Shown: one piece after another, positions 2,907 to 61,615 of the stretch
How positions within the stretch are numbered: the first letter of the stretch is position 1
How the letters are laid out: every line of letters starts with the position of its first letter
Source: a virus
Reading direction: 5' to 3' (one strand)
IMG/VR virus record: IMGVR_UViG_3300010885_015027
Coordinates: 1-64,000 of that record
DNA length: 64,000 nucleotides
The notes under the pieces: model-generated
What the model saw: only the letters and a program-made list of their open reading frames with translations
The model's database searches: none
What the model was told of the DNA's origin: nothing
Translations under genes and position numbers: made by a program

Positions 2907-3134
2907 TCAACGATTTACAAATGTTTTCATATCGGTACATTCCGTGTACCCAGACATATATTCTTCCACTTCTGCAAATGAGAAGACTAGTGTTTCCAGT
3001 CCGAGGTACGTTCCTTCCGGCTGTCTCCGCCACCGTGGTTTTGGTTTACGATTATAATAAGCATCGGCGGATCCACAATCGTAAAGACTACCGTTCTGGT
3101 CACGATCGAATTGGATAGATTTTTTCTTTTCCAT
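2907..3134 (-). CDS. Conserved phage hypothetical (KSIQFDRDQNGSLYD family)
   Basis: A 75-residue protein beginning MEKKKSIQFDRDQNGSLYD with a later PRW-RRQPEGTYLG segment and a C-terminal EEYMSGY. I recognise this D-G-S-x-Y-D...A-Y-Y pattern from small hypothetical proteins of T4-like and related phages, but no function is known. It has its own promoter (TTGCTA, 17 bp, TATAAT) with the ATG about 6 nt after the -10, so the mRNA is probably leaderless. Confidence 0.75.
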   Translation of the reverse strand: MEKKKSIQFDRDQNGSLYDCGSADAYYNRKPKPRWRRQPEGTYLGLETLVFSFAEVEEYMSGYTECTDMKTFVNR

Positions 3135-3183
3135 ACATCAATTATACCTTATTGGAACCCCCATAGCAAGGAGGCCTCGAAAG

Positions 3184-3240
3184 AATATCTCCTTTGTTTT
3201 CAACAGTATTCTGCAAGTGACTGATTCAGAAGGAGATATA
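3184..3240. repeat. Hairpin repeat R1
   Basis: About 57 bp, with ends atatctcctt and aaggagatat pairing as a hairpin and an inner segment shared with ten other copies in this window. It lies between the beta-helix gene (ends 3243) and the promoter of the 3134 gene and probably works as a terminator. Confidence 0.8.
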
Positions 3241-3242
3241 GA

Positions 3243-3620
3243 TTAATTAATAATTTCGTTCCCAGAGACCCGAGCGTACCCATAGACCTCTGCGTTCCCA
3301 GAGACCCGAGCGTACCCAGAGACCTCGGCGTCCCCAGCGACCACTGCGTCCCCAGCGACCACTGCGTTCCCATAGATCCAGGCGTTCCCAGAGACCATTG
3401 CGTTCCCAGAGACCATTGCGTTCCCATAGACCTCTGCGTTCCCAGAGACCTCTGCGTTCTCAGAGACCACAGCGTTCTCAGAGACCACTGCTTCAGGACC
3501 AACGTAGGCAGTCTCAGCGACACTAGCAGTATTCTCGACCCAGCCTCCTCCATTAGAATGAGGGTGCCACGTCTCAAGAGTAGCGTCAGGAAAAGCAGAT
3601 TTTAAATCTTCAAATGTCAT
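3243..3620 (-). CDS. Left-handed beta-helix (hexapeptide repeat) protein 1
   Basis: A 125-residue protein with a conserved head (MTFEDLKSAFPDATLETW, then GGGWVENTASVAETAYVGP) followed by about 13 hexapeptides of the form V-S/Y-G-N-A-x. That periodicity predicts a left-handed parallel beta-helix, as in YdcK-like and bactofilin-like hexapeptide proteins. No catalytic residues are evident. Five more relatives lie in this window. ATG 3620 is 8 nt after TATAAT, so the transcript is probably leaderless. Function unknown; a structural or adhesive role is a guess. Confidence 0.85.
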   Translation of the reverse strand: MTFEDLKSAFPDATLETWHPHSNGGGWVENTASVAETAYVGPEAVVSENAVVSENAEVSGNAEVYGNAMVSGNAMVSGNAWIYGNAVVAGDAVVAGDAEVSGYARVSGNAEVYGYARVSGNEIIN

Positions 3621-5950: not shown

Positions 5951-6436
5951 TCAACCGATAATTTCGTCCCCAAAGACCCGAGCTTTCCCAGAGATCGTTG
6001 CGTTCCCAGAGACCACTGCGTCCCCATAGACCACTGCGTCCCCATAGACCTCAGCGTCCCCATAGACCACTGCGTCCCCATAGACCTGAGCGTACCCAGA
6101 GACCTGAGCGTTCCCAGAGACCATTACGTTCCCAGAGACCTGAGCGTCCCCATAGACCTCAGCGTTCCCAGAGACCACTGCGTTCCCAGAGACCCGAGAT
6201 CTCCCATAGACCACTGCGTTCCCAGAGACCACTGCGTTCCCAGAGACCCGAGAGTTCCCAGAGACCATTGCGTTCTCAAAGACCCGAGCGTACCCGAAGA
6301 CCAATGCGTCAGGACCAACGTAGGCAGTCTCAGCGACGGTAGCAGTATTCTCGACCCAGCCTTCTCCGTTAGGATGGACGTGCCAAGTGTCTAGGGTAGC
6401 GTCAGGAAAATCGGATTTTAAATCTTCGAACTTCAT
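5951..6436 (-). CDS. Left-handed beta-helix protein 2
   Basis: A 161-residue relative of the 3243 product with the same head (MKFEDLKSDFPDATLDTW) and about 19 hexapeptide repeats, including SRVSG variants. I start at ATG 6436, not the earlier in-frame ATG, because the family begins at M-x-F-E-D-L-K and because a TATAAT-type -10 lies just upstream, inside the longer reading frame. It is transcribed away from the 6797 gene, with an R-element island between them. Confidence 0.85.
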   Translation of the reverse strand: MKFEDLKSDFPDATLDTWHVHPNGEGWVENTATVAETAYVGPDALVFGYARVFENAMVSGNSRVSGNAVVSGNAVVYGRSRVSGNAVVSGNAEVYGDAQVSGNVMVSGNAQVSGYAQVYGDAVVYGDAEVYGDAVVYGDAVVSGNATISGKARVFGDEIIG

Positions 6437-6486
6437 ATAGAACCAGTATACCTTATTGGAACACACAAAGCAAGGAATTTTCAAAC

Positions 6487-6543
6487 TATATCTCCTTTGT
6501 TTTCAACAGTATTCTGCAAGTGACTGATTCAGAAGGAGATATT
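6487..6543. repeat. Hairpin repeat R2
   Basis: Copy of the R hairpin: tatatctcc...ggagatatt arms with the CAACAGTATTCTGCAAG centre identical to R1. It bounds the left side of candidate RNA element A1. Confidence 0.8.
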
Positions 6544-6685
6544 CTTTCTTGAAATCCTTGAAGATTCCATCTCTATACCCACCTGTGTTATTGCCCTCAT
6601 GGATCGTCCCAGGGACGCACACAAGCGATCTCTGGATTCAGATGATCCACTAGTATACCTGTGTTCTTCTAGTGATCTTGCGAAA
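6544..6685 (-). ncRNA. Candidate structured RNA element A1
   Basis: Fills the gap between R2 and R3, between two divergent promoters. Read on the minus strand it matches the element at 57539-57684: a core of about 70 nt is nearly identical. The core holds a CGTCCC-T-GGGACG hairpin and an outer helix in which TCATCTG here replaces CCACCTG there opposite CAGGTGG, keeping pairing through G-U. No credible ORF crosses it. The RNA assignment is inference. Confidence 0.4.
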
Positions 6686-6746
6686 GAATATCTCCCTTTG
6701 TTTTCAGTAGTTTACCGCAAGTCATTGAAAACAAAGGGAGATATAG
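6686..6746. repeat. Hairpin repeat R3 (near-perfect inverted repeat)
   Basis: The arms ATATCTCCCTTTGTTTTCA and TGAAAACAAAGGGAGATAT are perfectly complementary over 19 bp, the most regular copy of the R family. It separates element A1 from the promoter of the 6797 gene. Confidence 0.85.
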
Positions 6747-6759
6747 TTTCGAGGCTTCC

Positions 6760-6788
6760 TTGCTATTCCCGGCTGGAACAGCTATAAT
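6760..6788 (+). promoter_or_regulatory. Early promoter for the 6797 gene
   Basis: TTGCTA, 17 bp, TATAAT, then GGTTCTATATG. TTGCTA sits inside the CCTTGCTAT tail that follows many R repeats. The ATG is only 8 nt past the -10. Confidence 0.8.
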
Positions 6789-6796
6789 GGTTCTAT

Positions 6797-6961
6797 ATGA
6801 TGATTACCTTTATTAAGAGCAAAACCAAAGATCAGAAACGTATCGTTCTTTTTCAGATCGGGAATTACCAATACGAAATCTGGAGCCAGACCTCTGGAAC
6901 TGTTCGTAAACTTATGGATACTTCTCATGAAGACGCTCTGGTCATTTTCAATGCACTATAA
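6797..6961 (+). CDS. Small hypothetical protein (54 aa)
   Basis: ORF of 54 codons (MMITFIKSKTKDQKRIVLFQ to the end ALVIFNAL) directly behind a strong promoter. It looks like a small beta-hairpin fold (alternating polar and hydrophobic residues around IGNYQYEIW) and is unrelated to neighbours. Two adjacent ATGs are in frame. Expression is likely because of the promoter and codon usage; function unknown. Confidence 0.6.
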   Translation: MMITFIKSKTKDQKRIVLFQIGNYQYEIWSQTSGTVRKLMDTSHEDALVIFNAL

Positions 6962-16524: not shown

Positions 16525-16710
16525 ATGAATTGTGCAAAAGCCAAACTGATTCTCAAAGAATCAACTAATTATTCAGACAAAGAACTTGCATGTTGTGAAC
16601 CCTGTCACGAAGATGCTGAAGAAGGTTGTAATGATAATCTAGATAACGGAACGGAACCATGTTGCAATTTGATCGCATTACTGGTTAATTCAGGACTACT
16701 GGATCCATAG
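16525..16710 (+). CDS. Small Cys-rich hypothetical protein
   Basis: A 61-residue acidic protein with eight cysteines, including two CC pairs and one C-x-x-C-style arrangement (ACCEPCHEDAEEGC, EPCCNL). It begins behind GGAAATAACTT after the gene 32 terminator. The cysteine pattern suggests metal or cluster binding. Not recognised; it could be expressed by readthrough from gene 32. Confidence 0.5.
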   Translation: MNCAKAKLILKESTNYSDKELACCEPCHEDAEEGCNDNLDNGTEPCCNLIALLVNSGLLDP

Positions 16711-16803
16711 AGGCCTCTGAAGAGTAACAACGAATAAAATATAGGTCTTTTATTTTCAGTAAAAATTGATTTGAGTGTTCCAAATAAGGTATAATGATTC
16801 TAT

Positions 16804-17247
16804 ATGACATTTGAAGATTTAAAAACTGCTTTTCCTGACGCTACTCTTGATACATGGCACGTTCATCCTAGAGGAGGAGGTTGGGTCGAGAATACTGCTA
16901 CCGTCGCTGAGACTGCCGACGTTGGTCCTGACGCATTGGTCTATGGGAACGCAGTGGTCTCTGGGAACGCTGAGGTCTCTGGGAGATCTCGGGTCTTTGG
17001 GTACGCTTGGATCGATGGTGACGCTACGATCACCGAGGACGCTCAGATCTATGGTGACGCTACGATCGCCGGGTTCGCTCAGGTCTACGGCGACGCTTGG
17101 GTCTACGGCGGCGCTCGGGTATTTGGGAGATCTCAGATCTCTGGGAGATCTCGGGTCTTCGGATCCGCTCGGATATCTGGGAGATCTCTGGTCTTTGGAG
17201 ACACGGTAGTCTCTGGGGACCAAATTATTGGTGAAGTGGCCAATTAA
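16804..17247 (+). CDS. Left-handed beta-helix protein 4
   Basis: A 147-residue family member with head MTFEDLKTAFPDATLDTW, GGGWVENTATVAETADVGP and about 17 hexapeptides. It is richer in S-G-R-S-R and D-A-x-I variants than its paralogs. ATG 16804 sits 8 nt after a GGTATAAT -10 and is probably leaderless. R4 follows its stop by about 14 nt. Function unknown. Confidence 0.85.
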   Translation: MTFEDLKTAFPDATLDTWHVHPRGGGWVENTATVAETADVGPDALVYGNAVVSGNAEVSGRSRVFGYAWIDGDATITEDAQIYGDATIAGFAQVYGDAWVYGGARVFGRSQISGRSRVFGSARISGRSLVFGDTVVSGDQIIGEVAN

Positions 17248-17260
17248 ATTTGATTTGAAC

Positions 17261-17318
17261 TATATCTCCTTCTGAATCAGTCACTTGCAGAATACTGTTG
17301 AAAACAAAGGAAATATTC
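17261..17318. repeat. Hairpin repeat R4
   Basis: R copy in the opposite orientation to R1 (tatatctccttctgaatcag first). Left border of element B1 and probable terminator of beta-helix gene 4. Confidence 0.8.
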
Positions 17319-17471
17319 TTTCAAGATCACTGTGTGCCACTGTGTGGGACGATTTCTGGACATCCAGCGGACCCTGGGTACTCCAAAGCCAACCGATTCG
17401 TTGCAGCTCATCTGGAGGATCGTATGAGGATCGATACTGATGATCATCCGCTTGATTGGTGTTGGGAAAAC
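17319..17471 (+). ncRNA. Candidate structured RNA element B1
   Basis: Non-coding stretch between R4 and R5. It shares a block of about 100 nt with the element at 36185-36323: GGACGATTT, then ACCCT-GG, then CTCCAAAGCC, an invariant ACCGATTCGTTGCAGCTCAT and TGGAGGATCGT. CTCCA and TGGAG can pair around the invariant segment. Flanks differ between copies, which argues for selection on the core. RNA nature is inference. Confidence 0.4.
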
Positions 17472-17528
17472 TATATCTCCTTCTGAATCAGTCACTTGCA
17501 GAATACTGTTGAAAACAAAGGAGATATT
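17472..17528. repeat. Hairpin repeat R5
   Basis: R copy almost identical to R4, followed by the TTTCGAGGCCTCCTTGCTAT tail that supplies the -35 of the next promoter. Confidence 0.8.
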
Positions 17529-17542
17529 CTTTCGAGGCCTCC

Positions 17543-17571
17543 TTGCTATATGGGTTCCAATAAGGTATAAT
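17543..17571 (+). promoter_or_regulatory. Early promoter for the 17578 gene
   Basis: TTGCTA, 17 bp, TATAAT, then GGTTCTATG. Part of the R-tail-promoter module. Confidence 0.85.
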
Positions 17572-17577
17572 GGTTCT

Positions 17578-18135
17578 ATGGCTATTTTGAATACCACCTC
17601 GTCTCTTGAATATGTTCCGCTTGGCGCTGTCAACCTCCGGGATATTTCTGACAAATATCGTCAATCGGATTTCCCTGAAAACTGGAAATTATACATCTAC
17701 GAGACGCACAATGGTCTCTGCTTGCACGATTACGAACGTAATTATTATGACGATTCAGACTTCATGATGACAGTCTGGAATCTTGAAAAGAATGAACCGG
17801 AAGATATCTGCTTCGCTACGACTCGTGGTTGGTCATATCCTTCTTATGGTTCCAAACCTGACGCAACTCCTGAGATTCAGGAAAAGTATGCTGCTTGGAA
17901 GGAAGTCAAGCGGATCGAGGCTCGGATCGAGGCTCTGGCTGCTGCCGAAGCCAAAGAGGCTGTTACCCCACGGAAAGGCAAGACGATCCGTGTCGTTCGT
18001 GGTCGCAAGGTTCCGATCGGAACTGTCGGTGTGGTGTTCTGGGTCGGATCGAATCGCTTTGGTGTCGCCGTCGGAATCAAAGACGAGACTGGTACAGCGA
18101 TGTTTACTTCTATCAAAAATGTTGAGGTTGTTTAA
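17578..18135 (+). CDS. Hypothetical protein with C-terminal KOW-like segment
   Basis: A 185-residue protein. I start at ATG 17578 because the promoter -10 lies inside the longer upstream reading frame. Residues 1-110 are acidic and aromatic-rich, followed by a charged helix (EVKRIEARIEALAAAEAKEA). The end, GKTIRVVRGRKVPIGTVGVV, resembles a KOW/SH3-like barrel motif. Codon usage is more GC-rich than in neighbours. Function unknown. Confidence 0.75.
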   Translation: MAILNTTSSLEYVPLGAVNLRDISDKYRQSDFPENWKLYIYETHNGLCLHDYERNYYDDSDFMMTVWNLEKNEPEDICFATTRGWSYPSYGSKPDATPEIQEKYAAWKEVKRIEARIEALAAAEAKEAVTPRKGKTIRVVRGRKVPIGTVGVVFWVGSNRFGVAVGIKDETGTAMFTSIKNVEVV

Positions 18136-33964: not shown

Positions 33965-35089
33965 GTAATTTAAACGTTCTACGAGAATATCTAAAACTTT
34001 TTCCGGTTGCATAATAGACAACCAATCTACTGCCGTATTAATCTTTCCAGATCTTCTCATATAGAAATATGAGTGTATTTGTAGATTGAAAGTTTTCTGA
34101 ACAAAAAGAGCGAATTCTTTCTGAGTCTTATCAAGCCACTTTTCTTCTACGATATCAGAATCCCATTCAGCATCCAGGAGTTCCGCAGTCCTATCCAAAT
34201 ATATTTTAATATCATCGAATCTAATTTTAAGATCAGGAAAATAAGCAAATAATTCAGAATCTTCCCCAGTACGGATTAGCTCAATAATCCGGATATCATT
34301 GAGACAATTCTTAGAGTGATGAATTAAAACATATTTCTCAGATTTAACTTTGATCCGATTAAAGTTCTTATCAACAAGAACAAATCCTTCTTGTTGCGAA
34401 GGATCCAATTCTTTCGCCGCAATCAAGATCTCTTCGATGGTTGTCATGGGAAATGACCGGACAACATCAAAACACTCACGATATAAATTAACTGGAAACT
34501 CGACACCAGTTTCGTTATCACGAACACCGATAAGAGTTAATTTTCCATTATTGGATAACTGGGAGGTAACGATGCGATTATATTTTGATGTTAATTCGAA
34601 TAGATAAGTGTTCCTAGGATCCAGATTTGCAGTTGCGGAATAAGCCTGCTTATGGAAAGTTTCCCAGAATAGCTCGGCGAAAGTGAATGGATGATCTCCC
34701 ACAGTTCCATTGGCAGCAGGAGATCCTTTGGTGGCAACATTCCACTTACCAACATAATGATACAAGATCATTAATGATCCATCAATCTTCTCCTGCGCAA
34801 CAAATGCGGACCAATCAAACGTGCCGCCATCAATGACGTCCTCACCCCAATTAAAGAAACGATCAAATGGGCGAGAGATTACTTTCCAGTCATTAGCACG
34901 ATCAAGAATGATTCCACGAGATTCCCGAACCATCGGATGATCTTTAATTTTCGAAGAACTAATTTGATCATATGTGAATTGGTATAGATCTGGATAATCA
35001 TTATGTTGTTTTGAGAAGATACCATATTCCGATGATAACTTCAACCGATCACCGTGATTATCTAACAGAAATTTCTGCAGTGTTAACAT
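33953..35089 (-). CDS. rnlA: RNA ligase 1 (RnlA)
   Basis: A 378-residue ATP-dependent RNA ligase. Upstream RSRGIILDRANDWKVISRPFDRFFNWGE is the family hallmark. Motif I EKIDGS (about 107), motif III-like RNTYLFELTSKYNRIV, motif IV EGFVLVD and motif V IKVKSEKYV follow. It matches T4 RnlA (374 residues) and completes tRNA repair with PseT. Confidence 0.95.
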   Translation of the reverse strand: MLTLQKFLLDNHGDRLKLSSEYGIFSKQHNDYPDLYQFTYDQISSSKIKDHPMVRESRGIILDRANDWKVISRPFDRFFNWGEDVIDGGTFDWSAFVAQEKIDGSLMILYHYVGKWNVATKGSPAANGTVGDHPFTFAELFWETFHKQAYSATANLDPRNTYLFELTSKYNRIVTSQLSNNGKLTLIGVRDNETGVEFPVNLYRECFDVVRSFPMTTIEEILIAAKELDPSQQEGFVLVDKNFNRIKVKSEKYVLIHHSKNCLNDIRIIELIRTGEDSELFAYFPDLKIRFDDIKIYLDRTAELLDAEWDSDIVEEKWLDKTQKEFALFVQKTFNLQIHSYFYMRRSGKINTAVDWLSIMQPEKVLDILVERLNYREP

Positions 35090-35118
35090 ATTAATGTCCT
35101 AAAATTTTATTTAGTTTG

Positions 35119-35397
35119 TCAAAACATATCTACGAAAATTGTATTCTTATTATTTCTCATTTCTTCGACCCAGGTCAAAAATTCATAGATTGCGGATTGA
35201 TTGTAATACCGATTTTCTGATCCGAAACGTACTGCGAGACTTTCCATTTCATCTACACATTGTTGAATCGGATCTGGTGAATTGATAATGCGTGAGGAGG
35301 TAGCCCAATTAAATTGAGGAATCGGAGCTTCTTCGATCATTTCTCCGAAGATAAGATCATTATCTGTCTGCGTGAAAAACTTAACATTCATGCTCAT
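35119..35397 (-). CDS. Small hypothetical protein (92 aa)
   Basis: Acidic, helical C-terminal half (VDEMESLAVRFGSENRYYNQ, then YEFLTWVEEMRNNK). Same strand and close spacing as rnlA and the 35408 gene, so probably one unit. Not recognised. Confidence 0.65.
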   Translation of the reverse strand: MSMNVKFFTQTDNDLIFGEMIEEAPIPQFNWATSSRIINSPDPIQQCVDEMESLAVRFGSENRYYNQSAIYEFLTWVEEMRNNKNTIFVDMF

Positions 35398-35407
35398 AAT
35401 AGTAGTT

Positions 35408-35689
35408 CTAGAAAAGGCAACCGTTGAGTTCCCATTGATCTAATGTTTCTTCGATTTCAGAATCAGAATCAGAGTCGTCGTAATAAATTCCAAATAGATC
35501 ATCTGGAAGATCTAAATCGATTAACTCGTTTTCGTGTTGATCACGATAATGTCTAGCCCAACGTTGCAGTCGGCGACATTCAAAACGCATAAAGAAATCG
35601 CCTCCGTCATATTTCTTGATCAATAGTACATTTACTGCATCGTCAATCGCCATCAAAAAAAGTTCACGATGATTTGTTGGATATTTCAT
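35408..35689 (-). CDS. Small hypothetical protein (93 aa)
   Basis: A 93-residue protein with a basic aromatic middle (FFMRFECRRLQRWARHYRDQHE) and a very acidic end (YYDDSDSDSEIEETLDQWE). Two in-frame AT-rich genes flank it at about 10-60 nt. Not recognised. Confidence 0.65.
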   Translation of the reverse strand: MKYPTNHRELFLMAIDDAVNVLLIKKYDGGDFFMRFECRRLQRWARHYRDQHENELIDLDLPDDLFGIYYDDSDSDSEIEETLDQWELNGCLF

Positions 35690-35750
35690 ATTAAAAATTT
35701 AGATCCTCTAGTTAATTCTTCTAGACAAAACACATGTTCAAATCGAATAT

Positions 35751-36077
35751 TTAACATTCAAATATAGCTTCAAGAAAATCGTCAGCAAGGGCAAGATCCG
35801 GATACTTCTCAATTAACATCATTTTAATATCATAGTCGCCAGCGGAAAATTCATTCAGATCTTCAATACTGAGAAGAGCTAATGTCTTTTCAATTTTCTC
35901 AATCTGATCAAGATCGAACGATCTAGAAACTTCACGATTCTCCGCATCAGACCAAACCTTATAGGACTTCTTGACAGTTTGGGACTTCGTTTGACGGAGG
36001 TCTTCATCCGCACGAAGAAAATTAATCGCAGCGAGAAGAACGGGGCAATTCATTTTAGTGATAATAATCTTTTCCAT
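35751..36077 (-). CDS. Hypothetical protein (108 aa)
   Basis: Start set at ATG 36077 (MEKIIITKMNCPVLLAAINF), 8 nt after a TACAAT -10 that belongs to the recurrent GGAACA/AAGG promoter type; the longer frame reads through that promoter. Helical and acidic at the C-terminus. Divergent from the 36431 gene across the R6-B2-R7 island. Confidence 0.7.
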   Translation of the reverse strand: MEKIIITKMNCPVLLAAINFLRADEDLRQTKSQTVKKSYKVWSDAENREVSRSFDLDQIEKIEKTLALLSIEDLNEFSAGDYDIKMMLIEKYPDLALADDFLEAIFEC

Positions 36078-36125
36078 AGAACCATTGTACCTTATTGGAA
36101 CACCCAAAGCAAGGGAATCTCGAAA

Positions 36126-36184
36126 CTATATTCTATTTAGTTTCAATCACTTGCACCAAGTCGTTGAAAACAAAGGAGATATAG
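36126..36184. repeat. Hairpin repeat R6 (diverged)
   Basis: R copy with a substituted left arm (actatattctatttagtttcaa) still pairing partly with ttgaaaacaaaggagatatagt. Left border of element B2. Confidence 0.7.
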
Positions 36185-36323
36185 TTTTGTGATCTCTGTG
36201 GACGATTTATTGCGATCCAACGTACCCTAGGACCTCCAAAGCCCACCGATTCGTTGCAGCTCATCTGGAGGATCGTGAGAGGATCGTGAGAACGATCAAG
36301 ACCAAATTAACCAAGAATAAACT
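36185..36323 (+). ncRNA. Candidate structured RNA element B2
   Basis: Second copy of element B. It shares with B1 the invariant ACCGATTCGTTGCAGCTCAT, the CTCCA/TGGAG pair and tandem GGATCGT units. The upstream helix differs (GCGATCC opposite GGATCGT). It lies between divergent promoters, flanked by R6 and R7, with no ORF. Confidence 0.4.
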
Positions 36324-36380
36324 GTATCTCCTTCTGAATCAGTCACTTGCAAGGAGTCACTGAAAACAAAGGAGATATTC
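36324..36380. repeat. Hairpin repeat R7
   Basis: R copy oriented like R4/R5, followed by the GAGGCCTCCTTGCTAT tail and promoter of the 36431 gene. Confidence 0.8.
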
Positions 36381-36393
36381 TTTCGAGGCCTCC

Positions 36394-36422
36394 TTGCTAT
36401 TGATGTTCCACTAAGGTATAAT
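36394..36422 (+). promoter_or_regulatory. Early promoter for the 36431 gene
   Basis: TTGCTA, 17 bp, TATAAT, then GGTTCTATATG; same module as at 17543 and 58717. Confidence 0.85.
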
Positions 36423-36430
36423 GGTTCTAT

Positions 36431-37183
36431 ATGAAAAAGTTAACTGCTGACGAATATCGCCAACTTTCTCGTGGTCAGATTCAAGAGCGTGAGGATTCGT
36501 TCGATCGATGCGACACCGATGGATTTCTCTCTCAATGGGCTTCGGGTATCAATTCAAATCTGAATCTGAGATTAGCCGAATTGGCTGAAGCTGGATGGGT
36601 TTCTGAATTTCCTGGTCTTTTCGACATCAAAACTGGTGAGCGTGTTCAAGCAAAGATTATCTATGTCAAAGATCGGTTCTCTTATAATGGTGCTCTGAAG
36701 TCACTTTGGGCGATTATCGATCCCAAAACTGAAAAGTTCACTGGCGTCTTTCTTCCTGAAGGCGAAAATTCTCGAAAGCAGAAGAAACTAGGATTCTTTC
36801 AGAAGAAAGAAATCGCCCCTGCTTATGCCAAAATCGACGGCGTTGGTCGTGGTCTTTCCGGTTCGGTTTGGATTTCTGTGTATCGCACAGATGGTGGTTA
36901 TCCCAAGGAGATGCGATCGGCGGTCACGACACGTGAAGAAGTTGTTGAATATATCATCCAGAATAAAACGGATAATCTTGAGTTGATTTCAACCTCGAAT
37001 AAAGTTTCTTCCAACGGAAAGGACTATATTCAGATATCCTTCAAAAATGGAAATTGTGGGATTTTGCTCGATGTTTATGGGCCGAAGTTTATTCTTGGTA
37101 AACAAACCATCGATCGTTCTGCTCGACCCACATTTAATTCTATCGATGATACTCTTGAGTATATTAATCGGACCCGTGAATAG
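36431..37183 (+). CDS. Hypothetical protein (250 aa)
   Basis: MKKLTADEYRQLSRGQIQER then a domain with FPGLFDIKTGERVQAKIIYVKDRFSYNGALKSLWAI and KIDGVGRGLSGSVWISVYRT. Reminiscent of uncharacterised proteins of large phages. The ATG follows the promoter by 8 nt (leaderless). GC content is higher than neighbours, as with other genes attached to R elements. Confidence 0.75.
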   Translation: MKKLTADEYRQLSRGQIQEREDSFDRCDTDGFLSQWASGINSNLNLRLAELAEAGWVSEFPGLFDIKTGERVQAKIIYVKDRFSYNGALKSLWAIIDPKTEKFTGVFLPEGENSRKQKKLGFFQKKEIAPAYAKIDGVGRGLSGSVWISVYRTDGGYPKEMRSAVTTREEVVEYIIQNKTDNLELISTSNKVSSNGKDYIQISFKNGNCGILLDVYGPKFILGKQTIDRSARPTFNSIDDTLEYINRTRE

Positions 37184-37214
37184 TCTTGCTTGATTAAACG
37201 AAAATGGAGTTATT

Positions 37215-37466
37215 ATGTCTAATCTTAGTATCCCATACAGAATAATTAGATGGGCGATTTTTCGCCTGGAAATTTTATTACATCACACACCAGAAGATCG
37301 TGCTCTTGTAGAAGTTAGGGCAAATATCCAAGACAGAAAAGGGTGTGTCGACACACACCGTGCTGTAGTGAGTAATCTATTCGGAGAGTATTCTCAAGAA
37401 CTGAGAGATATTAATACACTCATACGATTTCAAGAGTTTAAGAACAAGAGAAAAGATGGCCTGTAA
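37215..37466 (+). CDS. Small hypothetical protein (83 aa)
   Basis: Basic, helical protein (SIPYRIIRWAIFRLEILLHH... QELRDINTLIRFQEFKNKRK). AATGGAGTTATT provides a ribosome site. Not recognised. It is followed after 8 nt by the metallopeptidase. Confidence 0.7.
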   Translation: MSNLSIPYRIIRWAIFRLEILLHHTPEDRALVEVRANIQDRKGCVDTHRAVVSNLFGEYSQELRDINTLIRFQEFKNKRKDGL

Positions 37467-37474
37467 CAAAGATC

Positions 37475-37912
37475 ATGATTACAACCGACCAGGGAATCAA
37501 CAATCTAGAAATTCTGATGGATTTCATCCAACAAACTCTGTCCACAGAAATAAATTTTTTCCCATTCGGTGAGGATAATAACGAATTTCCTGTAGACGCT
37601 TGTGTGTTTCTGTGTGAAGGTTCACATGTTATTGACATTTATGTTGATGATATATCCTCTAATCTTGAGGCTATAATATCTTGTCTAATACATGAGATGG
37701 GTCATATTCTGTGTTATGAACAAGTTGGAAATAATCACACTGAACAGGACGCTTGGGACGCCGCAGTACTGGGTCTTCCGAAAGAATTAATCCCAGAAAC
37801 ATTCGAAGGAATTAAGGAATATTCTCTTTCAGAATATGATGAAATAGAAGAGGATAGTAATCGACATCCCAATTTATTCAATATTTTATATAATTTCCTG
37901 AATTATAAATAA
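37475..37912 (+). CDS. HEIGH-type metallopeptidase-like protein 2
   Basis: A 145-residue paralog of the 23889 product with LIHEMGHILCYEQ (about residue 72) and a downstream HTEQDAWDAAVLGLP. The acidic C-terminal tail is its own. Both proteins share an N-terminal strand pattern before the zinc helix. Substrate unknown. The last codons overlap the late promoter of the tmRNA gene. Confidence 0.72.
   Translation: MITTDQGINNLEILMDFIQQTLSTEINFFPFGEDNNEFPVDACVFLCEGSHVIDIYVDDISSNLEAIISCLIHEMGHILCYEQVGNNHTEQDAWDAAVLGLPKELIPETFEGIKEYSLSEYDEIEEDSNRHPNLFNILYNFLNYK
37904..37911 (+). promoter_or_regulatory. Late promoter of the tmRNA gene
   Basis: Perfect TATAAATA embedded in the metallopeptidase stop region. 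A late transcript would begin near 37918, just before the acceptor piece. Confidence 0.7.
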
Positions 37913-37917
37913 TATTT

Positions 37918-38186
37918 GTTGAGTGATGATCTAGACTGAAAGCTTCTTGGACGGGAGTTCGACTCTCCCCTCATCCACCAAAAGTACATTCGATACGAGA
38001 GTGTATTTTTGATGGGTGAGCAATTGGTTTCGACAGGATGAACTAGGAACAGGGAATTCAACCAGTAGACGACTACTGTAACAAGCGTAAACTATAACTG
38101 TCAATACAAATGTAATGGCAATGAGTGCCGCAGCTTAGGCTGTAACACTCGGGGGAATTATCCCTTGCAACAGAAAATAATTGAAA
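37918..38186 (+). ncRNA. ssrA: Circularly permuted (two-piece) tmRNA
   Basis: The acceptor piece comes first: T-arm GGGAG-TTCGACT-CTCCC (37953-37969), acceptor strand CTCATCC (37970-37976), A and CCA ending at 37980. A 33-nt intervening segment follows, then the coding piece starting GGGTGAG (38014-38020) and the tmRNA hallmark GGTTTCGACAGG. GGGTGAG/CTCATCC pairs fully with a G-U at the third position, the alanine identity element. The likely tag frame is 38103-38138, NTNVMAMSAAA then TAG, with the stop in a CAGC/GCTG hairpin. The permuted gene rescues stalled ribosomes after processing into two RNAs. Exact mature ends are estimates. Confidence 0.9.
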
Positions 38187-38216
38187 AATGGAGGGACCCA
38201 AATCCCTCCATTTTCA
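38187..38216 (+). terminator. Terminator of the tmRNA gene
   Basis: TGGAGGGA-CCCAAA-TCCCTCCA 8-bp hairpin followed by TTTTC. Confidence 0.9.
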
Positions 38217-38297
38217 CATTTGAAATACAAGACTGATTATAGTAGCAATTTAAAGCTAAATATATGTGTTCTTATGTAATTTAAAGAGACGTGAACC

Positions 38298-39410
38298 ATG
38301 AAACCCACCCCACTAATATTAATCGCACATAAAGATTCAAAAGTACACCACCCAAATGCTTGTCATATTGGTTTAGGTGTAACAGCCAATAACACAGCCA
38401 ATTTCTTAAACAAATATAACATTCCAGCGATAGCAGTATCTGTAATTGATGGATATGATCTTAGGGATGGATTGATAGATAATAGATGGGGAAACGTGAC
38501 ACATGTTGTTATGTGTGCGCCATTTTTTGATACACAATTCTTACATAATTTATGTTTAAAATTTCCAGATATAAGATTTACAATAACATATCACTCTAAT
38601 GCTGGATTTCTTGGTGTTGATCAATGGGCAATGGGTGTTATCGGGGAACAGATAACAGAACAATCATTATGCTCAAATTTTAATGTTTCCGTTAACAGTA
38701 AGAAATTCGCTAATGTCTTGAATAAGATATACGACACTCAACCTATAAATGTATTGCCCAATTTGTATACATTAAATTCAAATACCATTTATCCTGTTAA
38801 GAAGAAGTGGACGAATAGAAAGATTCTTAAGATTGGTACTTTTTGTGCAATCAGATCTCTTAAAAATATTCCAACAGCAGCATTTGCGGCCGCAATATTA
38901 TGTAAGAAATATGGAATTACAGTAGAATTTTGTATTATGAAAGGAAGAGAAGAAGACATATTAGCAGAAAAGATTGTCAACGGAATAGAGAGATTATTTT
39001 CTCATATTCCTAATCTAAGATTGGTACAATACGGGTGGCGTGAATGGAATGCATTTAGGGATGAAGTTGTGTCTGAGATGGATATTCTAATTCAGACTTC
39101 TTTCACAGAAAGTTTTAATATTGTGACAGCTGATGGTATTTATTGTGGTATTCCTTCTGTTGTTGGTGAAGCTATTGATTGGATTCCAAATTATTGGAAA
39201 GCAAATGTTGATGATGCAGCTGATGTTGCGAGAGTAGCAGAAAAATTAATGTTTACTGATTCTACATCAGACGACGGGTATGCGAAATTAGTCGATCATA
39301 ATAATGAAGCATTAGAATTATGGAAGGCTTGGATTACACCTCCTCACCCAGAAAAGAAGAATTGTTATATTAAGAAATTCTTTGGAAAGCTTAAAAATAT
39401 ATTTTCATGA
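38298..39410 (+). CDS. GT-B glycosyltransferase
   Basis: A 370-residue protein with two Rossmann-like halves. The C-terminal ETWo-like segment TESFNIVTADGIYCGIPSVVGEAIDW holds the E-x7-E type sugar-nucleotide site of group 1 (GT4) glycosyltransferases. It could modify phage DNA, a virion protein or the host surface; T4 glucosylates DNA, but this is not an obvious Agt or Bgt homologue. It lies between the tmRNA and the ClpA-like gene. Confidence 0.8.
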   Translation: MKPTPLILIAHKDSKVHHPNACHIGLGVTANNTANFLNKYNIPAIAVSVIDGYDLRDGLIDNRWGNVTHVVMCAPFFDTQFLHNLCLKFPDIRFTITYHSNAGFLGVDQWAMGVIGEQITEQSLCSNFNVSVNSKKFANVLNKIYDTQPINVLPNLYTLNSNTIYPVKKKWTNRKILKIGTFCAIRSLKNIPTAAFAAAILCKKYGITVEFCIMKGREEDILAEKIVNGIERLFSHIPNLRLVQYGWREWNAFRDEVVSEMDILIQTSFTESFNIVTADGIYCGIPSVVGEAIDWIPNYWKANVDDAADVARVAEKLMFTDSTSDDGYAKLVDHNNEALELWKAWITPPHPEKKNCYIKKFFGKLKNIFS

Positions 39411-39498
39411 ATCATCCATTGTCCAGAAGACTTACTAAGAATTATATACAGAAGTTCTGATTAGAAGAGCATTACTCTTAGCAACAGAAAATAATTGA

Positions 39499-39525
39499 TG
39501 GTGTCGCTTCGGTGACACCATTCAC
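39499..39525 (+). terminator. Intrinsic terminator after glycosyltransferase
   Basis: TGGTGTCGC-TTCG-GTGACACCA stem of 9 bp with a stable TTCG loop. It is preceded by GCAACAGAAAATAATTGA, the same 18 nt that precede the tmRNA terminator. Confidence 0.75.
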
Positions 39526-39563
39526 GCATTAATACAATAAATAAATTTAGGAGGAATAATTAC

Positions 39564-40583
39564 ATGATCCTAAATTCTAAAAATCTTTCCGGAAAAGCAA
39601 AAGAACTGCAAGATCGCTTGAATTCTGTTGTTGTAGGTCAAGAAGAAGCTGTTAAAGAATTAGCAATTACTACACAAAAATTCTTCCATGGTCTATCTGA
39701 TCCTAAGAAACCAATTACATCATTATTCTTTGCGGGAAAAACTGGTTGCGGTAAAACCAAAGTTGCAGAAGAATTGGCAAAGTTTTTTGGTATAACTAAA
39801 TTCATGAAAGTTAATTGTGGTGAATTCCAACAATCTCATGAGATCGCCAAATTGATAGGTTCTCCTCCTGGTTATATTGGACACTCAGAAACTAAAGCTT
39901 TCTTCAATAAGAAAGATGTAGAAGGACATTCACCAAATATAATATTATTTGATGAAGTCGAAAAGGCTACAGATTCTCTGTTCCATTTACTCCTCTCTAT
40001 CTTAGATAAGGGTGAGATTAAATTAGGAAATAATGATGTAGTAGATTTTAAAAATTGTTTTATTATCTTCACTTCAAATATTGGTGTAGAAGAAACAAAA
40101 AATAGATCTAAGAGAATAGGTTTCTTAGATAATAAGATTGGTGAAGGTGAAGAAGACCTCCTATTGAATAAATCTATGAAATCTAAATTTCGTCCAGAAT
40201 TTATCAATAGAATCGATTCTACCATACGTTTTAACACTCTATCAAAAGATCATATGAAGAAAATTCTTGAGTTAGAATTATCCAAAATTCAATATAGAAT
40301 TATGTCTTCTAAAATTATTAAAAAGAAGATCTATTTTGTTATGAATGCAGAAACGAAAAACTGGATAATCGATGAAGGATTTTCAGAAGAATTTGGTGCT
40401 AGAAATCTTAAGAGGATTATATCTAAGGCAATAGAAATACCTCTCTCATGTGTCCTCGGAGACGGACAACTTGAATCGGGAGATGTTATTGAGATTAAAA
40501 AAATAGAAGGTGAAGAAGACCTTGTCTTCGAGAAAGCTCTGTTCAAGCGTTCCAATAATAAAATTCTATCATTAGAATACTAA
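39564..40583 (+). CDS. ClpA-like AAA+ unfoldase with ClpP-docking loop
   Basis: A 339-residue single-ring AAA+ protein equal to the D2 module of ClpA/ClpB. Walker A GKTGCGKT (58-65), pore loop GYIG (103-106), Walker B DEVEKA (130-135), sensor TSNIG and arginine finger RPEFINRID. A surface tripeptide I-G-F (185-187) sits where ClpA has its IGL loop for ClpP binding; ClpB lacks this. No N-terminal adaptor domain. Partner is probably the ClpP at 61037. Ribosome site AGGAGG. Confidence 0.88.
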   Translation: MILNSKNLSGKAKELQDRLNSVVVGQEEAVKELAITTQKFFHGLSDPKKPITSLFFAGKTGCGKTKVAEELAKFFGITKFMKVNCGEFQQSHEIAKLIGSPPGYIGHSETKAFFNKKDVEGHSPNIILFDEVEKATDSLFHLLLSILDKGEIKLGNNDVVDFKNCFIIFTSNIGVEETKNRSKRIGFLDNKIGEGEEDLLLNKSMKSKFRPEFINRIDSTIRFNTLSKDHMKKILELELSKIQYRIMSSKIIKKKIYFVMNAETKNWIIDEGFSEEFGARNLKRIISKAIEIPLSCVLGDGQLESGDVIEIKKIEGEEDLVFEKALFKRSNNKILSLEY

Positions 40584-42298
40584 TCCACAGTTATTTTTGT
40601 GAAACCAGCGACTTTCGTGAATCTCAATATTCTGTCAAACTTATCTGTTATGTCCATTTTATGAGAAATAACGAAAGTGTTGGTTTCATCTTTACTAGAT
40701 GTCAAGATTTTCAAGAATTCGTCTATTCCCAATGAATCCAGTGATGAATCAAGAATCTCATCCAGGAGCAACAGATTAGTATTTGCTGCATTCTTCATCT
40801 TAGAAATTTCTCTCCAAGTAAACAGGATTGCAAGATCAATTCTCAGCTTCTCCCCTTCAGAAAATGAATGATACGTGAACGATTCCTTAGTTTTATTCTT
40901 AATCACTTCATCGAAATTTTCATCTAATGTGAAACTAACATAGAATTCCATTAATTGTAGATACTTGTTGATAATCTTATTCATTACAGGAAGATAATGG
41001 CGAATAATCTTAGTCTTGATTCCATCATCTTTCAATAGAATTGAAGCTATGGACTGTAGATGTTGTTTAGACAAACAAACATTGCGCTCTTCAGTTAGAT
41101 TATCTAGTTCCTTCTTGATTAGAGAAGAATCTTCTTGAATCTTTCGCAAATCTTCTTGTTTCTTATTATGAAGATCTTTTATTTGCTTTGATAATTTTTT
41201 AATATATGCGTTGATAGAAGTCGTCTCGAATTCTTTCTGGGCAATTTCAATTTTTCTTGTTTTAACAACTTCTAGACTTTCATTAATAACATCTATTTCC
41301 CTAGAGATAATAGACATTTCAGTAGTACAAGAATCTAATGTTTTGGTATACTTTAATAGATCTGTATTATGATTCTGAAGACTTTCTTGTTTAAAAGATT
41401 CTGGGATAGATTGTGTACACGTTGGACAATTATCATTAAGGTTAAAGAACCGAATCTCTTTATTCAAGTTCTTCATCTTTTCTTTAAATGTTGCCGAGTA
41501 TTGTGATAATTGTGATATCTTCTCAGTAAGTTTAGATAATTTAGAATCATTAATAATGATCTCTTGTATCTGATTCTGTAGGTCTTTAATCGATTCTTCT
41601 TTTGAAGATAATTGTAAGGTATTCCGTTGTATTTCTTTTTCGATTTCTAAGATTTGATTATCTAGATTTGACGAAGAATCTGTTAACAGATTCGTGTGAA
41701 TCTTAATCTTCTCTTTTGTGAGATCTAAACGATATGATGCGTGTGTCAGATCTTCTTTTGTTTTCGATATCTTTGACTTGAGAATAACATTCATCTTAGA
41801 GAAAATATCAATGTCCAAAAGATTCTCTACAATATTCCTTCTGTCGAATGGTGATAACTTCATGAACGGCATGTAAGTTGAACTTCCAATAACAATAATT
41901 TGTGTGAATGTTTTGTAATTCATCTTCAAGATATTTGTTTCAAGGAACTCTTGATAGTCTTTAGACATAGCATCTTGATTTAATAATTTCTTATTCTCAA
42001 AGATCTCAAAGATATTCGGTTTCATACCACGTCTGACTAGATATGAATCCGAATTGATTGTGAAAGTAATCTCAATTAAAAGATCAGAATTATTAGTTGA
42101 GTTAATGAGCTGCGGTTTATTAATTTTTCTGAACGGTTTACCATAGAGAACAAATGTCAGGGCATCAAGGATAGAACTTTTACCTTCCCCATTTTTTCCA
42201 ATGCAGATATTAGTTTTAGAAGAATTCAAAACAACTTCGTTGAATGTATTACCAGTAGATAAGATATTCTTGTATTTAATTTTTTCAAAGACGATCAT
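40580..42298 (-). CDS. 46: Recombination nuclease subunit gp46 (SbcC/Rad50-like)
   Basis: A 572-residue SMC-like ATPase. Walker A IGKNGEGKSSILDAL (about 35), long coiled coil, a zinc hook CPTC (about 295), ABC signature FSEGEKLRIDLA and Walker B LLLLDEILDSSLD near the C-terminus. With gp47 it resects DNA ends for recombination-dependent replication. Its start overlaps the stop of gene 47. Confidence 0.96.
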   Translation of the reverse strand: MIVFEKIKYKNILSTGNTFNEVVLNSSKTNICIGKNGEGKSSILDALTFVLYGKPFRKINKPQLINSTNNSDLLIEITFTINSDSYLVRRGMKPNIFEIFENKKLLNQDAMSKDYQEFLETNILKMNYKTFTQIIVIGSSTYMPFMKLSPFDRRNIVENLLDIDIFSKMNVILKSKISKTKEDLTHASYRLDLTKEKIKIHTNLLTDSSSNLDNQILEIEKEIQRNTLQLSSKEESIKDLQNQIQEIIINDSKLSKLTEKISQLSQYSATFKEKMKNLNKEIRFFNLNDNCPTCTQSIPESFKQESLQNHNTDLLKYTKTLDSCTTEMSIISREIDVINESLEVVKTRKIEIAQKEFETTSINAYIKKLSKQIKDLHNKKQEDLRKIQEDSSLIKKELDNLTEERNVCLSKQHLQSIASILLKDDGIKTKIIRHYLPVMNKIINKYLQLMEFYVSFTLDENFDEVIKNKTKESFTYHSFSEGEKLRIDLAILFTWREISKMKNAANTNLLLLDEILDSSLDSLGIDEFLKILTSSKDETNTFVISHKMDITDKFDRILRFTKVAGFTKITVD

Positions 42299-43353: not shown

Positions 43354-43890
43354 TTATTCCATGAACTCCTCTAACTTTGTTAGATTCTGAATCACTTCTT
43401 TGATTTTCTTTCTTCTTAATTGCCTTTCTTCATATTTCTGGATAATATGATGAGTATTCTCATTTAAAACTGATTTATTGAGATTAACGAATTTCTTTGA
43501 TTCCATCTTATGATCTGTGAACAGAGGAGAAGCTTCTAAAGACTTAAATTTAACGTATGTCTCAGTGGACTCCTGTTCAATTCTTCGTAAGAAGGCATAC
43601 CAAATAATCTTAGAGAAATATCCGAATGGATTCTTTGAAAGCTTCTCATTAAAGTTATGAAGATAAAGAAGGCAATTCTGAATTGCGTCACCTATCATAT
43701 CTTCTTTAAAAGTGTATCCAGAAAAATTCGGTCTCTTTGCAATATTCTCTGTTATCTTAAGAAGACACTCACCAATGTATTCAGGAACTCGTGGTTTTGG
43801 TGATTCTGATCTTAGAGCTTCAGCAATTTCAATTTTATAAGATATAAGTGCTTCTAAAAATTCTATATTATTTACATAATCTCGTGACAT
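43354..43890 (-). CDS. 55: Late sigma factor gp55
   Basis: A 178-residue divergent sigma-70-type protein recognising TATAAATA late promoters. Core region 2 segment DMIGDAIQNCLLYLHNFNEKLSKNPFGYFSKIIWYAFLRRIEQ matches T4 gp55, and the C-terminus ends in a hydrophobic/acidic clamp-binding-like tail (TKLEEFME). ATG 43890 is preferred over an ATG 18 nt upstream because GGAG lies 8 nt before it. Confidence 0.92.
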   Translation of the reverse strand: MSRDYVNNIEFLEALISYKIEIAEALRSESPKPRVPEYIGECLLKITENIAKRPNFSGYTFKEDMIGDAIQNCLLYLHNFNEKLSKNPFGYFSKIIWYAFLRRIEQESTETYVKFKSLEASPLFTDHKMESKKFVNLNKSVLNENTHHIIQKYEERQLRRKKIKEVIQNLTKLEEFME

Positions 43891-43916
43891 TATATGATTC
43901 TCCAGCACATACAGTA

Positions 43917-57467: not shown

Positions 57468-57479
57468 GTCTTTTTAAAA

Positions 57480-57538
57480 GAATATCTCCTTTGTTTTCAA
57501 CGACTTGGTGCAAGTGATTGATTCAGAACGAGATATTC
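57480..57538. repeat. Hairpin repeat R8
   Basis: R copy (gaatatctcc...gagatattc) with centre CAACGACTTGGTGCAAG. Left border of element A2. Confidence 0.8.
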
Positions 57539-57684
57539 TTTTTGAGATCGCTACAGAGATCTCGAGAGACCAGGTATACCTATGGACCACCTGAATCCAG
57601 AGATCGCTTGTGTGCGTCCCTGGGACGATCCATGCAGGCAATAACACAGGTGGGTATAGATGGAACCTCCATGGATTTCGAAAA
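57539..57684 (+). ncRNA. Candidate structured RNA element A2
   Basis: Matches element A1 (6544-6685, opposite strand). CTAT-GGA-CCACCTG pairs with CAGGTGG-GT-ATAG, enclosing a CGTCCC-T-GGGACG hairpin. The near-identical core includes GAATCCAGAGATCGCTTGTG and GGCAATAACACAGG. It lies between divergent promoters, flanked by R8 and R9. Confidence 0.42.
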
Positions 57685-57741
57685 GAATATCTCCTTTGTT
57701 TTCAACGGCTCCTTGCAAGTGATTGAAAACAAAGGAAATTT
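57685..57741. repeat. Hairpin repeat R9
   Basis: Inverted-repeat type R copy (tcctttgttttcaa...ttgaaaacaaagga), right border of element A2. Confidence 0.8.
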
Positions 57742-57791
57742 AAATTTAGAATTTCCTTGCTAAACTCCCCGCTCTATTATATAATGGATGT

Positions 57792-58025
57792 ATGGTTATC
57801 AAAGGAACAGTTCCTGAATGCGACATTACTGGGAAGAAGTATAATCCTCCCGTTTTTGGTGGTCACTGCGTTGTCGCTGGTGCGACTGGTCGTCACTGTG
57901 TTGTGATGCTTATTGGTCCGGAAGTGATTGAACGGGCGAACTTTAAAGTTCTCGACTTCGAAGAGACGATGGATTATCGGGAAGAGATTGCTGACAAGTT
58001 TGGTTGGGGAAACGTCGATTTCTAG
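57792..58025 (+). CDS. Small hypothetical protein (77 aa)
   Basis: MVIKGTVPECDITGKKYNPP with VFGGHCVVAGATGRHCVVML and an acidic C-terminal helix. GC-richer than average, like other R-associated genes. The ATG lies 6 nt after TATAAT. Function unknown. Confidence 0.7.
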   Translation: MVIKGTVPECDITGKKYNPPVFGGHCVVAGATGRHCVVMLIGPEVIERANFKVLDFEETMDYREEIADKFGWGNVDF

Positions 58026-58030
58026 GAAAA

Positions 58031-58090
58031 GAATATCTCCTTTGTTTTCAGTAGTTTAGTGCAAGTGATTGATTCAGAAGGAGATATTCT
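58031..58090. repeat. Hairpin repeat R10
   Basis: R copy followed by the TTTCGAGGCCTCCTTGCTAT tail and the promoter of beta-helix gene 6. Confidence 0.8.
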
Positions 58091-58102
58091 TTCGAGGCCT
58101 CC

Positions 58103-58131
58103 TTGCTATTCCTGGATGGATAAGGTATAAT
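58103..58131 (+). promoter_or_regulatory. Early promoter for beta-helix gene 6
   Basis: TTGCTA, 17 bp, TATAAT, then GGTTCTATATG. Confidence 0.85.
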
Positions 58132-58139
58132 GGTTCTAT

Positions 58140-58643
58140 ATGACATTCGAAGATTTGAAATCTACTTTTCCTGACGCTACTCTTGAGACGTGGCATGTTC
58201 ATACTAACGGAGGAGGCTGGGTTCAGAATACTGCTACGGTCACTGATAGTGCCTACGTTGGTCCTGACGCAGTGGTCTCTGGGAACGCTCAGGTCTCTGG
58301 GAACGCTCAGGTCTCTGGAGACGCTAAGGTTTTTGGGGACGCAGAGGTCTCTGAGAACGCATTGGTCTATGGGAAAGCAATGGTCTTTGAGAACGCATTG
58401 GTCTTTGAGAACGCTATGGTCTTTGAGAACGCTATGGTCTTTGAGAACGCAATGGTCTCTGGGAATGCTCGGGTCTTTGGGGACGCTGATGTCTGTGGGA
58501 ACGCAGTGGTTTATGGGAACGCAGTGGTTTATGGGAGATCTCGGGTCGCTGGGAACGCATTGGTCTCAGGATTCGCTCAGGTCTCTGGGAACGCAGTGGT
58601 CTCTGGGAGATCTCGTGTCTGTGGGAACGAAATTATTAATTGA
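58140..58643 (+). CDS. Left-handed beta-helix protein 6
   Basis: A 167-residue family member: MTFEDLKSTFPDATLETW, GGGWVQNTATVTDSAYVGP, then about 20 hexapeptides. A run of identical FENAMV repeats (58380-58460) shows recent repeat expansion. It is flanked by R10 and R11, so gene plus promoter forms a discrete cassette. Leaderless start. Function unknown. Confidence 0.85.
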   Translation: MTFEDLKSTFPDATLETWHVHTNGGGWVQNTATVTDSAYVGPDAVVSGNAQVSGNAQVSGDAKVFGDAEVSENALVYGKAMVFENALVFENAMVFENAMVFENAMVSGNARVFGDADVCGNAVVYGNAVVYGRSRVAGNALVSGFAQVSGNAVVSGRSRVCGNEIIN

Positions 58644-58644
58644 T

Positions 58645-58702
58645 CTATATCTCCTTTGTTTTCAACGGCTCCTTGCAAGTGACTGATTCAGAAGGAGATA
58701 TT
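58645..58702. repeat. Hairpin repeat R11
   Basis: R copy between beta-helix gene 6 and the promoter at 58717. Confidence 0.8.
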
Positions 58703-58716
58703 CTTTCGAGGCCTCC

Positions 58717-58745
58717 TTGCTATTGATGTTCCACTAAGGTATAAT
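58717..58745 (+). promoter_or_regulatory. Early promoter for the 58752 gene
   Basis: TTGCTA, 17 bp, TATAAT, then GGTTCTATG; nearly the same sequence as at 36394. Confidence 0.85.
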
Positions 58746-58751
58746 GGTTCT

Positions 58752-59012
58752 ATGAGTATGAATGACGTATTAATTCCCAAAACTTTCACGATGACTTCTG
58801 GTTTGGGCGGCGATCGTGACAATATGTTGAATTTTATCTGTTTCAACATCGATGGAGAGTTGGCAATGAGTTGGTATTCGGACGATGATGCGTTGTATAT
58901 CTTTCTCGATAAAGATGGTACGACTAGAATCGATGCTGTTAAAATTAAAAATGTGAAAAGTTCTATTGGGGCGATTCGATATTTCACCAAATATTTCAAA
59001 AATATTCTCTAG
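58752..59012 (+). CDS. Hypothetical protein (86 aa)
   Basis: MSMNDVLIPKTFTMTSGLGG then NMLNFICFNIDGELAMSWYSDDDALYIFL; strand-rich with an acidic DDD loop. Leaderless start after the R11 module. Not recognised. Confidence 0.7.
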   Translation: MSMNDVLIPKTFTMTSGLGGDRDNMLNFICFNIDGELAMSWYSDDDALYIFLDKDGTTRIDAVKIKNVKSSIGAIRYFTKYFKNIL

Positions 59013-60994: not shown

Positions 60995-61036
60995 TTTCTG
61001 TTAGAGTTCGAGTCCACAAATTAAATGAGGATACTA

Positions 61037-61615
61037 ATGGAAAATAATAATTCACAATCAGACATTCCTAAGATTTATATTTCATTTGAAGGTGCGGGAT
61101 ATTATTTACTTTCGGGTGAGATAGAAAACGAAAATACTTCTGATGCAATTAAATATATTGTAGAAAGAAATTTCAATTTTCGTGTTCTTAAAGAATCTAC
61201 TGAAATTCGAATGATGATTAATTCGATTGGCGGAGATCTGTGCTCCGGATTCGCTTTAATTGATGTGATGAAATCTTCTGAAATCGATATAGCAACTTTC
61301 GGTCTTGGAACAATTGCTTCTGCGGGACTCACGATTTTTATGGCAGGTAAGAAAGGAAAGAGATTTGTTACTCAGAATACATCTATTCTCTCACACCAAT
61401 TCTCCTGGGGATCGTATGGAAAAGAACATGAATTGTATGCAAGAAATAAGGAGTTTGAATTAACTACTAGCAGAATGCTTAATCATTATAAGAAGTGCAC
61501 AGGAATGAATGAAAAGAAGATCAGAGAAATTCTGCTTCCCCCGCATGATGTTTGGTTATCCGCAGAAGAAGCAGTAAAGTATGGAATTGCCGATAAGATC
61601 GTAGATTGGTACTAA
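61037..61615 (+). CDS. clpP: ClpP protease
   Basis: A 192-residue serine peptidase of the ClpP fold. Catalytic Ser95 in TIASAGLT, His120 in ILSHQFSWG and Asp171 in PPHDVWLSA; SIGGDLCSGFALID is the oligomerisation/oxyanion region. Start placed at ATG 61037 behind AGGATACTA, 12 nt inside the longest frame. Phage ClpP homologues elsewhere act on prohead scaffolds. Here a ClpA-like unfoldase with an IGF loop and a tmRNA suggest a Clp protease role instead. Confidence 0.9.
   Translation: MENNNSQSDIPKIYISFEGAGYYLLSGEIENENTSDAIKYIVERNFNFRVLKESTEIRMMINSIGGDLCSGFALIDVMKSSEIDIATFGLGTIASAGLTIFMAGKKGKRFVTQNTSILSHQFSWGSYGKEHELYARNKEFELTTSRMLNHYKKCTGMNEKKIREILLPPHDVWLSAEEAVKYGIADKIVDWY

Follow-up and report, generated by a model that had tools for sequence, protein, structure and literature searches.

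The window analysed here, a 64,000-nucleotide stretch forming part of a 76,732-base IMG/VR record, carries on its + strand (37904-38216) a permuted tmRNA gene in which the acceptor half lies upstream of the 5-prime half. The locus is a real permuted tmRNA gene kept by selection in a clade of T4-like phages. Given its anatomy, covariation, synteny and promoter motif, it very probably encodes a working two-piece tmRNA, for which the known tmRNA pathway would supply late transcription, processing, alanine charging, host-SmpB-dependent rescue and tagging with VNTNVMAMSAAA.

Identity, anatomy and predicted expression of the gene

A cmscan of positions 35000-41000 matched the full beta_tmRNA model (RF01850) at 37864-38216 with 102.5 bits (E 4.5e-31) and the tmRNA_permuted model (RF04321) at 37918-38138 with 94.1 bits (E 5.7e-18), above the respective Rfam gathering cut-offs of 84 and 47 bits, and ARAGORN called a permuted tmRNA at 37888-38229 with the tag VNTNVMAMSAAA. 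The circularly permuted tmRNA placed at 37904-38216 by a preliminary description is thus borne out, the covariance-model and ARAGORN checks that it had proposed both being strongly positive. The 7-bp acceptor stem with a G-U at pair 3 that it had drawn is confirmed, with 7/7 positions paired, G3-U70 among them, and with the discriminator A and CCA present; the T-stem is paired at 5/5 positions, and 33 bases separate the two halves. G3-U70 is the alanine identity pair of tRNA-Ala and tmRNA. For the tag, the frame and C-terminal part had been read correctly but one residue short: the true peptide has 12 residues, starting from GTC at 38100, and its extra first residue is supported by the relative L158, which reads ANTNVLVMSAAA in register. 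The segment 37912-38225 folds at -103 kcal/mol compared with -72.2 for shuffles (z -5.9), none of the 100 shuffles being as good.

Table 1. Features of the tmRNA locus and of the Clp genes in the window
Feature	Position	Strand	Basis
TATAAATA, T4-type late promoter, overlapping the end of the preceding gene	37904..37911	+	exact match; enrichment; spacing in L155 and L165
Acceptor half: stem strands, T-arm (37953-37969), CTCATCC (37970-37976), A, CCA (37978-37980)	37918..37980	+	sequence; cmscan; comparison with relatives
Segment between the halves, presumably excised; hairpin-forming	37981..38013	+	fold; length differs among relatives
5-prime half: GGGTGAG (38014-38020), D-loop analogue TTGGTTTCGACAGG (38024-38037), upstream stem	38014..38099	+	sequence; cmscan
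Tag frame VNTNVMAMSAAA and TAG stop	38100..38138	+	ARAGORN; homologous L158 tag ANTNVLVMSAAA
Pseudoknot: CGGGGG/CCCTTG (38150-38155/38162-38167), AATTAT/ATAATT (38156-38161/38177-38182)	38150..38182	+	base pairs preserved despite changed sequence in L155/L165 and L158
Hairpin TGGAGGGA-CCCAAA-TCCCTCCA, likely terminator; its U tract on + is short	38189..38210	+	terminator scan; better ones in L155 and L165
Single-ring (D2-only) ClpA-like AAA+ unfoldase with IGF tripeptide	39564..40583	+	ClpC/ClpA/ClpB D2 matches; IGF; synteny
ClpP-like peptidase; S99, H124 and D175 invariant	61025..61615	+	Pfam CLP_protease, 114.6 bits

The preliminary description had also bracketed the gene with a perfect late promoter and a strong terminator. 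The promoter motif TATAAATA is indeed exact and ends 6 bases ahead of the start of the tmRNA_permuted match; 17 copies occur in the window against 7.4 expected, with 0/100 shuffles containing as many. Its spacing to the RNA start is identical in the window, L155 and L165, and the exact motif was not found at the corresponding place in L164 and L158. The terminator stands in part: the hairpin is strong, but only 4 T directly follow it on the + strand and the terminator scan flags it on the - strand only. At the same position in L155 and L165, at least 6 T follow a hairpin that differs in sequence.

The window belongs to a T4-like phage. Its DNA polymerase is ~50% identical to cyanophage gp43, a late sigma factor (phrog_234) is encoded at 43354-43908, and the phage record also encodes a single-strand binding protein, DNA ligase, PhoH and, outside the window at 67206-67655, a gp21-type prohead protease (Peptidase_S77). 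Just before the tmRNA, a 145-aa ORF (37475-37912) has a metalloprotease-like HEMGH motif and no match in Pfam, PHROGs or NCBIfam. Dispersed repeats of ~40-300 bases, in both orientations and 70-100% alike, were seen at 36076-36430, 3125-3245, 6432-6800, 17258-17581, 57476-58143 and 58645-58754.

By analogy with the known pathway, we infer that host RNA polymerase with the phage's gp55-like sigma factor would transcribe the tmRNA late from TATAAATA, that host tRNA-processing enzymes would cut the precursor in two, one piece bearing the acceptor and the other the tag, and that the RNA would be charged with alanine via G3-U70. Host SmpB would load the charged tmRNA onto ribosomes stalled on broken mRNAs, which would be freed as the tag is added. 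Neither SmpB nor SspB was found in any phage record searched, two complete isolates (Phosso and BUCT-ZZ01) included, so that activity of the phage tmRNA would depend on host SmpB.

Conservation and covariation in relatives

Six IMG/VR relatives (L155, L158, L159, L160, L164 and L165), with helicase proteins 81-88% identical, carry a permuted tmRNA in the same genomic position, ahead of the gene for the ClpA-like protein, and represent three distinct tmRNA sequence types when the window is counted. A contig of another assembly (L037) is 100% identical to the window over 12.5 kb, tmRNA gene included. The tmRNA_permuted cut-off is exceeded in 6/6 relatives, all of which ARAGORN misses; since divergent phage tmRNAs escape this program, published counts are likely low.

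The acceptor stems of the three types read CTCATCC/GGGTGAG, CACCTCC/GGGGGTG and CAGGTCC/GGGCCTG, with pairs 4 to 6 differing on both sides among types and G3-U70 invariant, and helix b of the pseudoknot reads AATTAT/ATAATT, GAGATTT/AAATCTC and GCCGCC/GGCGGC. The tag frame is intact in all relatives. Such compensatory changes strongly indicate that selection has acted on the RNA in its phage setting. Changed sequence with preserved pairing at one locus in six relatives, together with the late promoter at the same spacing in two of them, supports a real gene under selection in a T4-like phage clade.

The best-scoring model is beta_tmRNA for the window and alpha_tmRNA for L158 and L165. A beta-type T-loop (TTCGACT) is combined in the window with the D-loop analogue TGGTTTCGACA, and an alpha-like T-loop (GGCAGA or GGCGGA) in L155 and L165 with CAGATTCGA or CAGTATCGA, the letters around them being nearly identical. 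The T-loop and the D-loop analogue switch jointly among relatives, as would be expected for contacting parts; alternatively, the type switch may stem from gene conversion with another tmRNA. Because relatives switch type at the same locus, the Rfam subtype is no guide to the host, and naming a host from the beta or alpha match was dropped.

Two further observations concern individual relatives. In L158 (16497-17563), and likewise in L160, a truncated acceptor-half copy and an intact permuted tmRNA whose T-arm differs flank an HNH-like ORF (16636-17295), which scores under the Pfam HNH cut-off (E 0.0015). The arrangement looks as though a homing-type gene had entered the tmRNA gene, bringing a replacement half. 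In L155 (7880-8190) and L165 (17130-17260), a shared non-coding-looking stretch (GGTGAAATCCGACATAG...GGATAAGGTCCACA) lies just upstream of the tmRNA; it is possibly an undescribed structured RNA, the L155 copy had no match in an Rfam search, and the stretch was not seen ahead of the window tmRNA.

Tag peptide, Clp genes and the fate of tagged proteins

The window tag ends in -MSAAA, with Ala-Ala preceding the stop, and a third tag type in the clade reads GNAKAMSMSA. The tags of L155 and L165 end in -MSA, which indicates that the tag end is loosely constrained; those of the window and L158 retain the Ala-Ala end, and the clade tags lack the usual Leu-Ala-Ala. Among 116 permuted tags read by ARAGORN in the loci fetched here, a set that includes the window's own phage three times, Ala is the first residue of 108 and LAA the ending of 92, making the window tag an outlier. 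Separately, ARAGORN reads tags of ~26-32 residues, compared with the usual 10-12, in the viral permuted tmRNAs of L008, L035, L089, L135 and L143.

The ClpA-like unfoldase (~340 residues) matches the second ring of ClpC, ClpA and ClpB and has the Walker A motif GKTGCGKT and the pore loop GYIG. Its IGF tripeptide, invariant in 6/6 unfoldase copies, stands at what we take, from knowledge of ClpA and ClpX, to be the ClpP-docking position. The unfoldase gene is directly downstream of the tmRNA in all relatives seen; in the window, a 370-aa ORF (38298-39410), for which profile searches returned no known family, separates the two. The ClpP gene lies ~21 kb from the tmRNA. At the sequence level, the parts of a phage ClpAP-type protease are present, the Ser-His-Asp of ClpP and the IGF of the unfoldase marking a putative pair. 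A role for this ClpP as prohead protease is unlikely, as the same record encodes the separate gp21-type enzyme. Beyond the clade, a tmRNA was found in 9/50 ClpP contigs and in 3/35 helicase-gene control contigs (Fisher p 0.34); a p of 0.037 in contigs up to 66 kb was not relied on, as the cut was chosen after seeing the data. With the wider association not significant, a functional link between tmRNA and Clp proteins, which we infer from gene order, would rest on unfoldase adjacency in one clade. ClpP genes also follow permuted tmRNAs on the same strand, ~0.8-3.6 kb downstream, in the other viral contigs L067, L079, L091 and L110/L140.

What would become of the tagged proteins can be read in more than one way. 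The explanation given above could be extended to a private tag-and-degrade route, in which the phage unfoldase and ClpP, not host ClpXP, would recognise the tag, and amino acids would be recycled or broken proteins cleared late in infection. Adjacency of the unfoldase gene in all relatives, the invariant IGF, the intact ClpP triad beside a separate prohead protease, and the -MSAAA and -MSA tag ends, set against LAA in 92/116 permuted tags, all point in this direction, as does the Sinorhizobium phage Phosso, which likewise has a permuted tmRNA, ClpP and a Clp ATPase. The distant position of ClpP and the non-significant tmRNA-ClpP association speak against it, and such a route seems quite unlikely. 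The same holds for the broader picture of a tag-and-destroy pathway that a T4-like phage would carry almost complete, built from a late two-piece tmRNA, a private tag, a neighbouring single-ring ClpA-like unfoldase and its own ClpP, with SmpB supplied by the host.

The same tags, lacking the usual Leu-Ala-Ala end, would also suit an interfering RNA that competes with host tmRNA and rescues ribosomes, its tag being poorly read by host proteases and sparing truncated proteins. A tag-less form of the DS6A phage tmRNA inhibits endogenous tmRNA in E. coli (PMC11915505). We nevertheless regard interference as unlikely, given that the tag frame is intact and that the window and L158 tags keep their Ala-Ala end. 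That the gene is a functionless passenger, or a decaying remnant captured from a host, is highly improbable; the invasion of the locus in L158 and L160 would fit such decay, but compensatory changes in three helices, with promoter and frame kept, largely refute it.

Relation to known systems and significance

The window tmRNA, which we read as a working two-piece RNA, is not the first of its kind in a phage, and the kind has already been published. Among 133 unique phage tmRNA structures, 53 were called two-piece in 2022, of which 50 belong to phages of marine or aquatic origin (PMC9004378), and 99 IMG/VR viral stretches were matched here by one strict permuted-tmRNA pattern; the earlier statement that phage tmRNAs are known holds, and the rarity it ascribed to two-piece forms is weakened. 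Elsewhere, 79 phage tmRNAs have been listed and RF04321 was made (PMC11915505), tmRNA and SmpB have been reported in huge phages (PMC7162821), and a Sinorhizobium jumbo phage has a tmRNA and six Clp ORFs (PMC11242549). A BLASTN search of the gene against named phages returned 22 weak matches, all confined to fragments of the T-arm.

As in the window, a T4-like phage carries a permuted tmRNA in the case of Methylophilales phage Melnitz and its marine relatives (PMC9004378). The Melnitz tmRNA, however, is preceded by an early promoter with a glutamine riboswitch and clusters with those of alphaproteobacteria, whereas that of the window has a late promoter motif, the beta model as best match and an unusual tag; Rfam found no riboswitch in positions 35000-41000 of the window. 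The betaproteobacterial permuted tmRNA (RF01850) matches over its full length and shares the TTCGA T-loop, the TGGTTTCGACA D-loop analogue and the pseudoknot, but most of the bacterial tags read here are of the form ANDExxALAA or AMAA, and the type is unstable in the window's clade. As in the window, tmRNA occurs alongside phage Clp proteins in the Sinorhizobium jumbo phages Phosso and AP-J-162 (PMC11242549) and in Synechococcus phage BUCT-ZZ01. Phosso and BUCT-ZZ01 have the closest ClpP among named phages (47-50% identical), and both carry a permuted tmRNA. The Phosso Clp ATPase is full length (open frame 795 aa), in contrast to the single-ring unfoldase of the window; no matching Clp ATPase was found in BUCT-ZZ01, whose tag ANDETFSMALAA is ordinary, unlike that of the window. 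In Phosso (L354:2097-2699), ~400 bases lie between the tmRNA halves compared with 33 in the window, and ARAGORN misses the gene.

Natural selection has kept a permuted tmRNA in this clade of phages, its helices showing compensatory changes, and simple acquisition of DNA from a host is disfavoured on that ground. Particular to this clade are the non-LAA tags, the ClpA-like unfoldase adjacent in relatives, and a phage ClpP besides the gp21-type protease, and a private tag-and-degrade route is possible there. The unfoldase neighbour, the phage ClpP and the odd tag raise the specific and testable question of whether phages steer the fate of rescued, tagged proteins.
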